This document shows, one piece after another, positions 4,372-18,955 of a stretch of 64,000 bases of DNA (the first letter of the stretch is position 1; each line of letters begins with the position of its first letter). Below the pieces are notes generated by a model. It did not search any database. It was not told where the DNA came from and saw only the letters and a program-made list of their open reading frames with translations. The stretch covers positions 1 through 64,000 of the forward strand of contig JAGXTL010000042.1 in NCBI GenBank assembly GCA_018333635.1. The letters are read 5' to 3'. The DNA is from Dethiobacter sp. Its GTDB lineage: Bacteria > Bacillota > Dethiobacteria > Dethiobacterales > Dethiobacteraceae. The translations under genes and the position numbers were made by a program.

Positions 4372-5346
4372 ATGCCAATGTTGCTCAAAAAAGTGGGCTC
4401 GAAAAATAAAGTAGTCGATATTGAAGAAGTATGGAATATATGGGAGCTATTGAGTTCAGGTTATGAGAGCCTAGCAGACATTAAGCTATTAAAGAATTTT
4501 GTCCACGATAATGATTTAAACTGGCTACTTGATAGACATCTTAAGAGCCTAGAGGATGAGCTTAATATGATGGAAAAGGAGGCAATCCGATATAATATAA
4601 AAACTTCACATCAGCCTCCAGTAGACTTTAAGACCTCAGCGATTGTAGAGGAATTTTCTGATCGTTACATTTTTCGCAATGTTTACCGACGCCTGGGAGA
4701 TGATTTATTTAAATTAAGCCGGTCTATACGCACATCTTCTACAAACGATATGTTAAGGCGTAGGCTGCAGCACCGTCTTAAAGATACACTCAAGAATTTT
4801 GAGGAATTTATAAAATACGGTAGATTAAAGGGATGGCAAGATCCTCCGCCAACATATAAGATACACAAACCACAAAAATCTGAACAGTTATTGGTTTCAG
4901 AAGCGTTTCATCTCTGGGATCATTTAAATCAAAGGTACGATCAATTGCATTTGACAAGTACGTATAAATCATTAATTCATGACCCCGAATTAGTTGTGAT
5001 CATTACTTTAGGTGTTCAATCTCTTTCAGAAGAAATCAAAATGTTAGAAAATCTTATGACAAAGTTTGAAATAGTGCTGCCGGGAAGACCGCCTGCCTCT
5101 ACAAGGATACCAATTGATCCAGAGGTTTTTGAAGATGTATTCATGTTCCGCAGTATTTTGACTGGCTTGCAGGAAGCGCAGGATCTCCACTTAAGAGCGG
5201 TAGTGCAGACCGAGATGAACGATAAATTACGCAAAATGTTTACGCGAATACTATTAAACGAGATGAGTCTTTACGATAAACTACTCAAGTATGGAAAAGC
5301 AAAAGGATGGACTCAACCGGCACCGGTTTACAATGAGCCGACGTAA
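4372..5346 (+). CDS. DUF3231-like tandem-domain protein
   Basis: A protein of about 324 residues made of two repeats of roughly 150 residues. Each repeat ends in the same signature: YGRLKGWQDPPPTYK in the first and YGKAKGWTQPAPVY in the second. Both halves are predicted mainly helical with charged amphipathic helices, as in the DUF3231 family (ferritin-like/CotF-like proteins common in spore-forming Bacillota). Function is unknown. An ATG at 4354 is in frame, but the GGGGGGAAAG ribosome site lies between the two, so the ATG at 4372 is preferred. The gene stands alone and its AT content is higher than its neighbours'. Confidence 0.7.
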   Translation: MPMLLKKVGSKNKVVDIEEVWNIWELLSSGYESLADIKLLKNFVHDNDLNWLLDRHLKSLEDELNMMEKEAIRYNIKTSHQPPVDFKTSAIVEEFSDRYIFRNVYRRLGDDLFKLSRSIRTSSTNDMLRRRLQHRLKDTLKNFEEFIKYGRLKGWQDPPPTYKIHKPQKSEQLLVSEAFHLWDHLNQRYDQLHLTSTYKSLIHDPELVVIITLGVQSLSEEIKMLENLMTKFEIVLPGRPPASTRIPIDPEVFEDVFMFRSILTGLQEAQDLHLRAVVQTEMNDKLRKMFTRILLNEMSLYDKLLKYGKAKGWTQPAPVYNEPT

Positions 5347-13976: not shown

Positions 13977-14264
13977 CGGAGGCCTCCTTGGAAAAAGATT
14001 AAGCCCGTTTGGGCGAGTGTTAGCTCTTATGTTTACGAAAACGTTATTTTCGACATCAAAAGAGAGAAATCCTGTTTCATTCTAACAGATTTTGAGCCGA
14101 TTGAAAACCCCGAAACTATTTTTGTCAGCAGTCGTAGACAGGAGCCTTGCCTTGAGAGCGGAAGGGAGGCTCAGTAAGAGTGTTTTTCTAAGACATAAGC
14201 AAAGGATTTATCAATTTGATGTCGAAGTAAGAGAGCATATATAGTTATAAGGTGCGTGATTGCT

Positions 14265-14978
14265 ATGAGTGAGAGATTCTATAAGGATGTACTTGATCAC
14301 TCTCCCATCGGATATGCTTATTACAGGGTGCTTTGCGATGAGGACTGTATGCCTTATGACTATGAGTTGATTGACGCTAATCTTGCCTTTGCAAAAATGA
14401 TGGGCCTAGCCCTTGGTGAGATAGTTGGTAAAAAAGCTGCAGAGGCTTTGCCGTCAATGTGGGGAGGAAAGTCCGAGTTGTCTTTATGCTGTGAAGAAAT
14501 AGCCATACAGGGCGGCGGCAGTATAGAGTTTGAACATTATTTTGAACCGCTTGGCAGATGGTATAAAATAAATCTGTTTTCTCCGGCGAAAAGTCATATT
14601 GTGACATACTTCACTGATATTGCGCATCAGATGAGAATTCTGGAAGAGCAAATCACCTTGAATACATTCTTTAACGATATTGTGATAGAACTGGATGAAA
14701 ATTTCAGATATATCAATTACAATCCCAGCAAGAAATATGATTTTCAGCAGAGACAAAAAATTATCGGCAAAACAATTCGTGAAGTCTATGGCTTGGAATT
14801 TGCTACGTTGCTTGAGAGTGTAAAACAGCGTTGGCGTCAGGGAAAATGGAGAGTTTCATTCACAAGTCGCCGATGCCTGGTATTGACAGGTGGTTTCGCA
14901 CAAATATTATTTACAGGACTGACTGCTTCAATCAAAAGAAATATATACTTGTCACAAGAGATATCACCGAAAAGGTAG
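14265..14978 (+). CDS. N-terminal PAS part of a frameshifted signalling protein
   Basis: The product has one full PAS domain (about residues 8-130, with SPIGYAYYRV and YFTDI) and the start of a second (NTFFNDIVIELDENFRYINYN). The reading frame then passes a GGGAAAATGG run at 14841-14850 and ends in unrelated residues by 14978. In the overlapping frame the second PAS continues as MESFIHKSPMPGIDRWFRTN and runs on into the GGDEF/HD-GYP gene. One missing A in the run at 14843-14846 would explain both. Start is ATG 14265, 10 bases after AAGGTG. Confidence 0.7.
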   Translation: MSERFYKDVLDHSPIGYAYYRVLCDEDCMPYDYELIDANLAFAKMMGLALGEIVGKKAAEALPSMWGGKSELSLCCEEIAIQGGGSIEFEHYFEPLGRWYKINLFSPAKSHIVTYFTDIAHQMRILEEQITLNTFFNDIVIELDENFRYINYNPSKKYDFQQRQKIIGKTIREVYGLEFATLLESVKQRWRQGKWRVSFTSRRCLVLTGGFAQILFTGLTASIKRNIYLSQEISPKR

Positions 14979-16426
14979 AAGCTGAAAGGGCAGTATATAC
15001 AGAGAAGGAAAGGCTGCGGGTTACATTGCAGTCGATCGGTGACGCTGTAATAGCTACTGATAAAAGCGGTTCGATTATCAGTTTAAATCCCATAGCTGAA
15101 CAGTTAACCGGCTGGTCTGAACAGGAGGCCAAAGGAAAAAATGCGCAGGAAGTTTTTCATATCATCAGTGAAAAAACAAGAGAAGTATGTGAAGACCCTG
15201 TGCAAAAAGTGCTTGATTCAGGAAATATTATCGGTCTGGCAAACCACACCGCGCTAATTTCCAAAGACGGCACGGAGAGGCCTATCGCCGATAGTGCAGC
15301 ACCGATTAAAGATGAGGCTGGCGTAATTCATGGTGCCGTTCTGGTTTTCAGGGATGTGACAGGTGAAAAACTCAGGCATGAAGAAATTGAATATCTCAGT
15401 TATCATGACAGCTTAACGGGGCTATACAATCGCAGGTTTTTCGAGGAAGAATTAAACAGGATGGATGTGGAAAGGAATCTGCCAATTACACTGATTATTG
15501 GCGATGTAAACGGGTTAAAATTAATTAATGACGCGTTTGGCCATCTCGTGGGGGACAGGCTTTTGCAGAAAGCAGCGGTAGCCATAAAACAGGCTTGCCG
15601 TGTTGATGATATCGTTGCGCGCTGGGGTGGTGACGAATTCGTGATTATTCTGCCTAAGACCAACCAAAAAAGCGCCGTAGAACTTATGCAAAGAATTAGA
15701 AACTCATGTACTGAGGCGGAAATAGAAGCAATTAAGCTTTCTATTTCATTGGGTTATGAAACAAAAGAGAAAGCAGATGAATATATCTCAGATGTGCTTA
15801 AATCCGCCGAAAGAAATATGTATAAGAATAAACTGCAAGAAAGCCAGAGCATGGTAGGAAGCGCAATCAAAGTAATTCACAGTACTCTGTTCGAAAAGAA
15901 TCAAAGGGAAGCCGAGCACTCCAGAAGAGTGGCAAAGATAAGCAAAAATATAGCAAAGGCGATGGGGTTGCCGGAAGCGAAAGTAAATGAGATGGAAACG
16001 ATCGGATTGATGCATGATATCGGCAAAATCGCTATTGCGGAAACAATTCTAGAGAAGACCGGCGAACTGACTGAGGAAGAATGGACGGAAATTCACCGGC
16101 ATCCGGAGGTTGGCTACAGGATACTTAGCACTTCAAATGATACAGTTGAAATTGCTCGATATGTTTTAGCCCACCATGAACATTTTGATGGCAGCGGATA
16201 TCCCTCGCATATTAAAGGGGAAGATATTCCATTACAGGCTAGAATTCTTGCTGTGGCAGACGCATTTGATGCTCTAACAAGCAAAAGGGTCCACAGAGCT
16301 GCTTATTCCTTACCTTATGCAATAAAAGTATTGCAAAATAATGCGGGAAAGCAATTTGACCCAGAAGTGGTTAAAATTTTTATTGAAAAAGTATTGACTG
16401 ACTCGGACGGAATGGAAAGTAAATAG
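14831..16426 (+). CDS. PAS-GGDEF-HD-GYP cyclic-di-GMP turnover protein (5' part in other frame)
   Basis: Contains the end of one PAS, a further PAS (about residues 60-165), a GGDEF domain with RWGGDEF and an upstream RVDD that fits the inhibitory I-site (RxxD five residues before), and an HD-GYP domain with HDIGK and HHEHFDGSGYP. Both cyclase and phosphodiesterase signatures are intact, so the protein could make and break c-di-GMP. The first codons (TTG at 14831) are probably not a genuine start; the natural protein most likely begins at 14265. Treat the two entries as one gene split by a one-base frameshift, sequencing error or phase-variable run. Confidence 0.85.
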   Translation: MASGKMESFIHKSPMPGIDRWFRTNIIYRTDCFNQKKYILVTRDITEKVEAERAVYTEKERLRVTLQSIGDAVIATDKSGSIISLNPIAEQLTGWSEQEAKGKNAQEVFHIISEKTREVCEDPVQKVLDSGNIIGLANHTALISKDGTERPIADSAAPIKDEAGVIHGAVLVFRDVTGEKLRHEEIEYLSYHDSLTGLYNRRFFEEELNRMDVERNLPITLIIGDVNGLKLINDAFGHLVGDRLLQKAAVAIKQACRVDDIVARWGGDEFVIILPKTNQKSAVELMQRIRNSCTEAEIEAIKLSISLGYETKEKADEYISDVLKSAERNMYKNKLQESQSMVGSAIKVIHSTLFEKNQREAEHSRRVAKISKNIAKAMGLPEAKVNEMETIGLMHDIGKIAIAETILEKTGELTEEEWTEIHRHPEVGYRILSTSNDTVEIARYVLAHHEHFDGSGYPSHIKGEDIPLQARILAVADAFDALTSKRVHRAAYSLPYAIKVLQNNAGKQFDPEVVKIFIEKVLTDSDGMESK

Positions 16427-16856: not shown

Positions 16857-16904
16857 GTGTACAACCTACAGGCGGACAGGTGATTTGTCCCACTCGTCCA
16901 CGCG

Positions 16905-16950
16905 ACCACCCCGCCCTTGCGGGCACCCCTCCAGGGGAGGGGAATTTTTG
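16905..16950. repeat. CCACCCC...GGGGAGGGGAATTT intergenic repeat, copy 1
   Basis: CCACCCCGCCCTTGCGGGCA, then CCCCTCCAGGGGAGGGGAAT, forming small palindromes. A related copy sits at 39711-39753 just before ygiQ. No gene is supported between 16774 and 17207. Confidence 0.65.
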
Positions 16951-16952
16951 TA

Positions 16953-17116
16953 CCAGGAAATTATATCGCTTCCAACGTAATGGGGGTGCCGCAGGGCGAC
17001 TCCTTTTCGGGCGGGTTTGAAACCCGCCCCTACCAAAAGGTGCTCAGGGTTTGCAGATCCGCCGAAGGGGCGGCAGCCCGTAGGGGCGGGTTTCAAACCC
17101 GCCCTGCAAGATGCGT
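16953..17116 (+). repeat. About 165-bp interspersed repeat with two GGGCGGGTTT palindromes, copy 1
   Basis: The block begins AGGAAATTATATCG, holds GGGCGGGTTTGAAACCCGCC, a spacer with CCCCTACCAAAAG, a second palindrome in the opposite arrangement, and ends CCTGCAAGATGCGTCAG. The same order is found inverted at 45049-45222, with about 50 bp of different sequence between the left edge and the first palindrome. No coding capacity is evident; it resembles a small non-autonomous element or REP-like composite. Confidence 0.75.
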
Positions 17117-17207
17117 CAGTTGATAGAAAAATCGAAGCGTTTTTTTTGGAGAAATGTGCTTATCGATTCGATTGGCTATCATCATGCTGCCGCTAAAAAT
17201 GGCTTTT

Positions 17208-18695
17208 TTATAAAATTACTTTGTTATCGCTTTCATAGGAGATGTCTGCTTTATCGACACCTTTTTCCAAAAGGATATTATAGCTTTCCTTAATCATATT
17301 TTTAGTGCCGCACATATAAACTTTATAGCCTTTTAGGTCTGTCATGTTTCTTAATTCCTCAGTAACACGCCCTTTTTTGAGGCTGGTTGTCTTTTCTCTG
17401 GAAACAATTGCTGTATAACTAAACTTATCGTATTGCTCAGCTAAATTGTTAAAATAGTCATGGTATAAGAGATCTTTTTCATACTTTTGACCGGATATAA
17501 GGTGGATGATTTTTGCGTTGGGGTAGTTTAACAAAGCATCTTTTAACATGGCAATGAAGGGTGTTATACCGATACCGTTGGCGATAAAGAGAATTTTTTC
17601 GGCGGAGGGATCCAGGACTAACTCATTTCCCATCGGGCCTTCAAGTTCAACCATATCTCCAATATTAAATTCGCTAAATATTTTGTCGGTACCATAACCC
17701 CCCGGGATTTTTTTTACGATTACGCTCAGCTGTCTATTGTTTTCGTTGTATGAGGAAATAGTATATGCTCGAAACGAGCTTGGATTTTCTTGAATTTTTA
17801 CTAAGATGAATTGTCCGGAGCGGTAGTTTACTTCTTTCGGTGATTCAAAAGTAAAAACATATTCGTTTGCATCCTCATTCAATTCTTTTTTAGCGGAGAT
17901 TATTGCCGTTATTTTTTTACGGTCTTCATAGCCCTCTAGAGATGTTCTTTCTTTTAACTTAAGAGCATTGTTTTTAGTTGCAAGCGATAAAGCGCCGGCG
18001 GGGCAGTGTTCTACACATGTGGAACACTTGATGCAATTTGCATCATTAAACTGATTGAGATCAGAGAACTCTAAGAAGGGTTGTAACTGGAATGGGCAAA
18101 CGCGGGAGCATTTGCCGCATTTATGACATTTTTCTAATGCTGAGATAGTTATTTTTCTCTCGGTTTTTTCAGTAATCCCCAGCGTTTTGCCTAACTTATG
18201 GGATAGCTTTTGCATGGAACCCATAGGGCAGAATTGACACCAGATCCGTGGCGTAATGAAAACCGCTAAAAGGCCACCGACTATTAATACCATAAGAAAA
18301 GTGTTGGCGAATAAAAGTCCCAACCTATCCAAGAAATCATATGCGCCCCAGTTTTGAAAGACATTTAATACTCTTCTCATAAAATTAAACATAAAAAAAA
18401 TAAAAAAGCCGACAATCATCAACTTAGATGTTAAGAAGCTGGGGATTTTGGCATTTTTACTTATGGGCAAGATGTTATCAAATAAGCTGCCATGCGGACA
18501 GTATTTTCCACACCAAGATCTGCCCGTAAAGAATCCGGTAGTAATCAGCCCAGCCATAATAAAAGGCACAATTAAACCCAGTTTAGGTTCCCACAAACCG
18601 CCGATAGCAACAAGCACAGTAATTAACCAGCCAAATTTTCTGATTAAGCTAAAAGTTCGCTTTGCTTTAATATTGTAGTTTTTTTGCGTAGCCAC
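17208..18695 (-). CDS. Membrane polyferredoxin fused to a ferredoxin-NAD(P) reductase-like domain
   Basis: About 495 residues. The N-terminal half is NapH/NosR-like: several membrane helices with WCGKYCPHG and WCQFCPMGS, then two [4Fe-4S] motifs, CHKCGKCSRVCP and CIKCSTCVEHCP (about 190-240). The C-terminal half is an FNR-type module with FAD-binding RAYTISS and NAD(P)-binding GIGITPF. It probably passes electrons between NAD(P)H and a membrane or extracytoplasmic partner. GTG codons at 18704 and 18695 are possible; AAGGGG lies 8 bases before 18695, so that is preferred. A CsoR/CstR-type operator covers the promoter, suggesting control by copper or reactive sulfur. Confidence 0.85.
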   Translation of the reverse strand: MATQKNYNIKAKRTFSLIRKFGWLITVLVAIGGLWEPKLGLIVPFIMAGLITTGFFTGRSWCGKYCPHGSLFDNILPISKNAKIPSFLTSKLMIVGFFIFFMFNFMRRVLNVFQNWGAYDFLDRLGLLFANTFLMVLIVGGLLAVFITPRIWCQFCPMGSMQKLSHKLGKTLGITEKTERKITISALEKCHKCGKCSRVCPFQLQPFLEFSDLNQFNDANCIKCSTCVEHCPAGALSLATKNNALKLKERTSLEGYEDRKKITAIISAKKELNEDANEYVFTFESPKEVNYRSGQFILVKIQENPSSFRAYTISSYNENNRQLSVIVKKIPGGYGTDKIFSEFNIGDMVELEGPMGNELVLDPSAEKILFIANGIGITPFIAMLKDALLNYPNAKIIHLISGQKYEKDLLYHDYFNNLAEQYDKFSYTAIVSREKTTSLKKGRVTEELRNMTDLKGYKVYMCGTKNMIKESYNILLEKGVDKADISYESDNKVIL

Positions 18696-18716
18696 AGACA
18701 ACACCCCTTAATCAAC

Positions 18717-18740
18717 ATTATACCCCTTGGGGGTATGTCA
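18717..18740 (-). promoter_or_regulatory. CsoR/CstR-type operator overlapping the -10 box
   Basis: ATACCCCTTGGGGGTAT at 18720-18736 is a perfect 7-3-7 palindrome matching the G/C-tract operators of CsoR-family repressors (CsoR for Cu(I), CstR for persulfides). On the minus strand it is joined to TATAAT (18723-18718), about 25 bp before the GTG start. Binding there would block the -10. No csoR or cstR gene is in the window. Confidence 0.7.
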
Positions 18741-18955
18741 TAAGTATACTTTTTTCTATGATTTTTGTAAAGGCTTTTTTATTTTTTTACTGAATTGCCA
18801 GGAAATCTGCAAAAGGGAGTGCGGAATAGTCGGCAATTATCTACGCTCAAAAATCAGGCCTGCAAAGTATGCGGCAAGGATTTTATATGTTTTTGCAGAA
18901 TACTATAATGTGTTGGTAATGCTAAAGAATTTGCGCCTGACAGGGGGTAGTGACC

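Follow-up and report, generated by a model that had tools for sequence, protein, structure and literature searches.

A gene of Dethiobacter sp. that joins ferredoxin-type membrane modules to a flavin reductase is preceded by a perfect 17-bp palindrome, ATACCCC-TTG-GGGGTAT (18720-18736), and the question raised by this locus is which regulator reads the palindrome and which signal that regulator answers. We analyzed the locus within a window of 64,000 nucleotides (the whole stretch of DNA, positions 1 to 64,000 of contig JAGXTL010000042.1; Table 1). The palindrome, which the sequence-only reading had described correctly, would be expected 0.08 times per window when as many as three mismatches are allowed; the exact 17-mer occurs once across the 2.39-Mb draft genome, and the general form ATACCC-N4/5-GGGTAT occurs twice in the whole genome, as against once for a reversed control pattern. 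Read as TAC-CCCCAAGGG-GTA, the site is an exact fit to the type 2 CsoR operator, described in the part of the source available to us as a 5'-TAC-X9-GTA-3' inverted repeat with semi-continuous C/G tracts (PMC3902906).

Table 1. Features of the fusion locus, in window coordinates
Feature	Position	Strand	Basis
-35 hexamer TTTACA	18766..18771	-	promoter scan and comparison with relatives
-10 hexamer TATACT, ending 6 bp before the operator	18743..18748	-	same geometry in relatives
17-bp putative operator (in gene direction: ATACCCCCAAGGGGTAT), with TAC-X9-GTA enclosing C/G tracts	18720..18736		sequence, conservation, match to type 2 CsoR consensus
Probable ribosome-binding site AAGGGG, serving the GTG start at 18695	18704..18709	-	read from sequence; inferred
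Fusion of polyferredoxin and flavin reductase, listed with 498 codons; start probably at 18695	17208..18704	-	domain search, alignment, model
Four-helix membrane part (residues 20-174) bearing the Cys motifs WCGKYCPHG (C65/C69) and WCQFCPMG (C156/C159)	18183..18647	-	domains, alignment, model
Two [4Fe-4S] motifs, residues 190-240	17985..18137	-	domains, alignment
Reductase part that binds FAD and NAD(P), residues 268-472	17289..17903	-	domain and fold search

In the sequence-only reading the palindrome overlapped the -10 element, a placement that did not hold. The best promoter is TTTACA-17-TATACT (18771-18743), and the overlapping TATAAT counts as not conserved because it reads TATAAG in G001 and G002. 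The operator starts 6 bp past the -10 hexamer and therefore covers the transcription start; a sigma-70-like -10 likewise ends 0-13 bp ahead of the operator in 36 of 39 operator-bearing rows, which include one duplicate (L040). The GTG at 18695 is probably the true start codon, since the AAGGGG ribosome site overlaps the GTG at 18704. Elsewhere in the window, a gene at 14256-16426, which we take to be of the PAS/GGDEF/HD-GYP type, lies in two overlapping frames and forms one 724-aa frame in G001 (L042:2878-5052); the split is probably a frameshift. Dispersed repeats with GGCGGGTTTGAAACCCGCC palindromes were seen at 16890-17120 of the window and near position 4600 of a second locus (L104).

The encoded protein carries two Fer4_5 domains, two 4Fe-4S modules, FAD_binding_6 and NAD_binding_1, in line with the earlier picture of iron-sulfur modules joined to an FNR domain. 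The NapH part of that picture fared less well: the NCBIfam name that comes nearest to the N-terminal half is NapH, which scores 54 bits where the cut-offs are 213 and 234. The cupric reductase family ccoG (TIGR02745) was not among the best 25 NCBIfam families for this half, and a relative (L051) scored 22.4 bits against its cut-off of 316.7. Among the best 50 matches listed in the fold search only the flavin half was matched, with no relative of the membrane half alone. All eight cluster cysteines (C193/196/199/203 and C224/227/230/234) are invariant in 26 aligned full fusions, as are C65, C69, C156 and C159. The AlphaFold model (mean pLDDT 84.4) presents four long membrane helices, and charged-residue analysis, whose rows include the duplicate L040, places both Cys motifs on the K/R-rich side of the membrane part; by the positive-inside rule, both motifs, the clusters and the flavin part are predicted to face the cytoplasm.

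Relatives were drawn from a class sample (97 genomes, of which 29 encode the protein or only its N-terminal half, with E <= 1e-60) and a phylum sample (398 genomes, of which 34 do so with E <= 1e-50, six of these also in the class sample), together giving 58 loci from 57 genomes. The G004 fusion locus, at a contig edge, was set aside, which left 57 assessable loci, and the operator was counted as present at 11 or 12 of 12 positions. It was found within ~330 bp upstream in 38 of the 57, as against 1 of 464 control regions (other upstream regions in the same loci, with the duplicate among their rows), though loci of one genus are not independent of one another, so that the Fisher values computed on these loci overstate the evidence. 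The duplicate, L040 (NPL), repeats the record of G305 (L256) and was removed from the 38/57 counts, and both copies of the G001 fusion were counted; these lie, with flanks, at the end of G001:C80 and the start of G001:C81 (L041, L042), as a duplication or an assembly overlap.

Full fusions and N-terminal-only genes bore the operator to a similar extent (19/28 and 19/29, respectively). This first scan of ~330 bp missed operators at operon heads, and a rescan of the 19 negatives to 3 kb recovered a perfect operon-head operator in four: G329, G281, G375 (trx-fusion) and G147, the last heading an operon of a CoA-disulfide-reductase-like gene and the polyferredoxin gene. In G329 and G281 the trx gene has a divergent TrxR-like gene beside it, and in G228 the operator lies ahead of a nearby trx gene. 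At both gene and operon head the operator was missing in 15 of the 57 loci (G228 included), two of which, G327 and G255, have 10/12 operator positions near the gene. In one further locus (L219 of G090), SelD and a NifS-like desulfurase gene lie directly 5' of the polyferredoxin gene, without the operator. These comparisons support well the conclusion that a CsoR-family-type operator is the rule in this protein family, not the oddity that the sequence-only reading had taken it for.

CsoR-family genes also accompany the family physically. A PF02583-type gene lies directly 3' of the fusion or its half in 13 of 58 loci, a count in which the short 3' flanks of G089, G090, G372 and the first G001 copy imply no absence. 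Ten of the 13 linked regulators (G034, G046, G058, G059, G062, G064, G065, G066, G081 and G091) read Cys-Phe/Tyr-Cys, that is, two cysteines at the CsoR positions and no His, as expected of a CstR; those of G281 and G329 read Cys-Leu-Ala, keeping the first aligned cysteine with Ala at the second, and that of G122 reads Cys-His-Cys. The operator is 16 nt long in all ten loci with a linked two-Cys, no-His regulator, and in the remaining 28 operator-bearing loci it is 16 nt in four and 17 nt in 24; this is a correlation rather than proof, because the ten loci span few genera (six belong to one). Both forms occur in G034, with a 17-nt copA site near a C-H-C CsoR and a 16-nt fusion site with a C-F-C regulator.

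The CsoR-family gene whose existence the earlier reading presupposed was found in the genome itself, as a single PF02583 protein (C108:47264-47503) beside mgtE and unlinked to the fusion; no operator was found at this csoR. It is Cys-His-Cys, the copper-type ligand set, and thus departs from the His-less CstR pattern, and its best PDB matches are the Geobacillus copper CsoR and then InrS. Of 59 near genomes, 47 hold some PF02583 gene. The case has its main gap in two sister drafts, both ~93% complete, in which no CsoR-family gene was found: G002, which bears both fusion and operator, and G003, which has the ferredoxin site described below. A DNA search of these two for the mgtE-csoR locus returned a dispersed repeat only. 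A short element near csoR occurs in tens of copies in G002 and G003.

Taken together, CsoR-family control of this fusion architecture is well supported, because the genome holds a CsoR-family gene and the palindrome is conserved in relatives, the two points whose failure would have refuted the sequence-only reading, and we consider it very probable that the putative operator serves such control. The earlier CsoR/CstR assignment stands to this extent and is not narrowed further, since the genome's own member is Cys-His-Cys while the relatives' linked regulators mostly lack the His, so that CsoR and CstR are not separable in this genome. Our gradings of CsoR-family control here, and of a sulfur/thiol effector and of copper below, are judgements, none of them computed.

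Other genes bear the operator as well. The second site of the genome (C10:12376) comes with a TTGACA-TATTCT promoter directed at a 62-aa [4Fe-4S] ferredoxin, an arrangement shared by G001, G003, G005, G007, G011 and G013 and varied in G004. In G000, G001 and G003 the operator at the ferredoxin measures 16 nt, though no C-F-C regulator was found there. A role for the second site as a cobQ (cobalamin) operator was rejected, as its promoter points the other way, and a SelD site (G003:C99) was dismissed as chance, lying within the SelD reading frame, where it codes I-P-P-G. The operator, which the sequence-only reading had advised seeking ahead of sulfurtransferase or copper genes, precedes in G004 a CoA-disulfide reductase that carries a rhodanese domain and in G007 copA, but not the genome's own copA. 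Among HesB-like proteins (36 matches, spread over 35 genomes out of 59, with 30 of the loci examined), those with an in-frame TGA carry the operator in 7/7 cases in the genome's own family (six at 12/12, one at 11/12) and in 1/23 in the other families examined; no such TGA-containing protein was found in the genome itself. The HesB-like loci L145, L146, L151, L155 and L156 (G005, G007, G011, G015 and G018) and L312-L341 read G-stop-GGP and were taken as selenoproteins, a family already known but of unknown function according to the available part of its description (PMC11097638). A consensus promoter and a perfect operator also accompany a small DUF1440-like membrane protein that belongs to a different family of the class (L173 and L175, in G021 and G030).

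We propose that a CsoR-family (DUF156/PF02583) repressor would occupy the palindrome at the transcription start and block the promoter, until modification of its reactive cysteines, most likely by persulfide/polysulfide or related thiol stress, releases it and the gene is made. The fusion would then act as a cytoplasm-facing membrane reductase, passing electrons from NAD(P)H through FAD and the two [4Fe-4S] clusters to the conserved pair of CysX2-3Cys motifs at the membrane, then on to a sulfur or thiol acceptor, with the co-controlled small ferredoxin, a thioredoxin or a CoA-disulfide reductase as possible partners. The sequences themselves show the operator, the geometry of the promoter, the conservation, the order of the domains and the linkage to CsoR-family genes, and repression, effector, electron path and acceptor belong to the proposal. 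Taken whole, this explanation seems to us evenly poised; sulfur/thiol as the effector, judged by itself, leans toward the probable. Copper or persulfide sensing, as first suggested, is plausible on the sequence evidence, and we favor reactive sulfur or thiol stress over copper as the proposed effector, because no CPx-motif P-type ATPase or small HMA protein (that is, no heavy-metal ATPase or copper chaperone) appeared in the flanks of the 58 fusion loci in a motif search, and because the genome's own copA lacks the operator. The thioredoxin and CoA-disulfide-reductase-like operons and the CstR-like cysteine pairs count for sulfur/thiol; in E. faecalis, CstR has CoA persulfide reductase among its targets (PMC9405070), and Dethiobacter reduces sulfur and polysulfide (PMC5609068), as far as the consulted parts of these sources report. 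Against it count the lack of any sulfur gene adjoining the fusion within the window, the genome's C-H-C regulator, which does not look CstR-like, the sister drafts without a CsoR gene, the 15 of 57 loci that lack the operator at both gene and operon head, and the operator at copA of G007.

This last site belongs to the best-surviving alternative, in which a C-H-C CsoR senses Cu(I) and the fusion is a CcoG-like, self-sufficient cupric reductase with its own NAD(P)H module, delivering Cu(I) to CopA. The genome's operator matches the copper CsoR type 2 consensus given in the consulted part of PMC3902906, and its CsoR has the copper ligand set; a perfect operator lies 21 bp ahead of the start of the G007 gene (G007:C44, L147:2729-4930), which encodes a CopA-like ATPase; copA genes in other families of the class have the same operator with a C-H-C CsoR nearby; and CcoG is itself a two-cluster membrane cupric reductase, of unknown donor in the available portion of its report (PMC7558416). 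However, of the 27 copA-like loci examined across 22 near genomes only that of G007 has the operator, none was found at the genome's other HMA loci either, which speaks against copper-efflux control here, 12 of the 13 linked regulators lack the His, and the ccoG scores given above are poor. We therefore regard copper as unlikely. Other copA loci of the genome's own family have C[CT]ACCCCCC...GGG variants, which may be a second operator type.

Ranked below copper, and likewise doubtful, is another CsoR-family effector (nickel or cobalt, as for RcnR and InrS, or formaldehyde, as for FrmR) or a general disulfide/oxidant stress, controlling an electron-supply module. It is consistent with InrS as the second PDB match, with matches of NCBIfam RicR, RcnR and FrmR (each below its cut-off) and with the residue preceding the first Cys of the genome's CsoR, which differs from the Tyr of copA-linked CsoRs, but among the operator-controlled genes we saw none for nickel, cobalt or formaldehyde. 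It is quite improbable that the operator is real yet read in this genus by an unrelated regulator, with the C108 CsoR as a bystander: the site is kept in G002, where no CsoR-family gene was found, and csoR adjoins mgtE without an operator, yet CsoR-family genes are linked at 13 other loci and G002 is an incomplete draft. Finally, a chance feature or terminator stem, as a simple scan scored the palindrome, is refuted by the conservation of its position and sequence over ~50% protein divergence (in the proportions given above); the missing T-tract after the palindrome in most relatives also counts against it.

Returning to the sulfur/thiol reading, we tentatively extend it to a widespread CsoR-superfamily regulon of anaerobic Bacillota, in which a self-sufficient NAD(P)H-polyferredoxin membrane reductase, as a membrane analogue of ferredoxin-thioredoxin reductase, may clear persulfides and disulfides. 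It would be switched together with thioredoxin, CoA-disulfide reductase, the small ferredoxin and, in the genome's own family, the HesB-like selenoprotein, by dithiol repressors without the copper ligand, which a difference of one base in the spacing of the operator would set apart from copper CsoR. The persulfide dioxygenase route is oxygen-dependent and closed to strict anaerobes, which would, if this proposal is true, gain a cytoplasm-facing reductive route for reactive sulfur. It would also add an electron-transfer branch to the repertoire of the CsoR superfamily, give a first functional handle on a common, uncharacterised family of polyferredoxin-flavin reductases, and provide a test case for how paralogous repressors with near-identical operators (spacing 8 vs 9 bases) are kept apart.

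CsoR/CstR regulation is already known, and a search of the open-access literature did not find this target family, the recurrent operator or the co-controlled genes. Among known systems, the NapH/MauN ferredoxin-type membrane proteins are the best family for the N-terminal half, though it scores far below their cut-off, has a flavin module fused to it and forms a single-gene unit in the window. CcoG/FixG/YccM cupric reductase is also a membrane protein with two [4Fe-4S] clusters, as the consulted part of PMC7558416 has it, whereas the fusion has an FAD/NAD(P)H module, and the family score is marginal and comes from a relative. TTHA1953 of Thermus thermophilus, regulator of the Sox pathway, is also of the CsoR family, unlinked to its targets and concerned with sulfur metabolism, but its operator lacks G-tracts and its targets are others, according to the portion of PMC10318464 available. 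The type 2 CsoR systems (S. lividans csoR/copZA and B. subtilis copZA) share the same TAC-X9-GTA inverted repeat with C/G tracts, whereas here the operator stands at an iron-sulfur flavoprotein and a ferredoxin, not at the genome's own copper efflux genes. The CstR systems (E. faecalis CoA persulfide reductase and the S. aureus cst operon) differ in that the regulator of this genome has the His and no sulfide oxidation genes are seen here, and the His position is Phe/Tyr in the linked regulators but Asn in the aligned PDB chain 7mq1, which we take to be a CstR. They are nonetheless alike in that the relatives' linked regulators likewise have two Cys and no His, and in that the operator stands at CoA-disulfide-reductase-like genes in G004 and G147.
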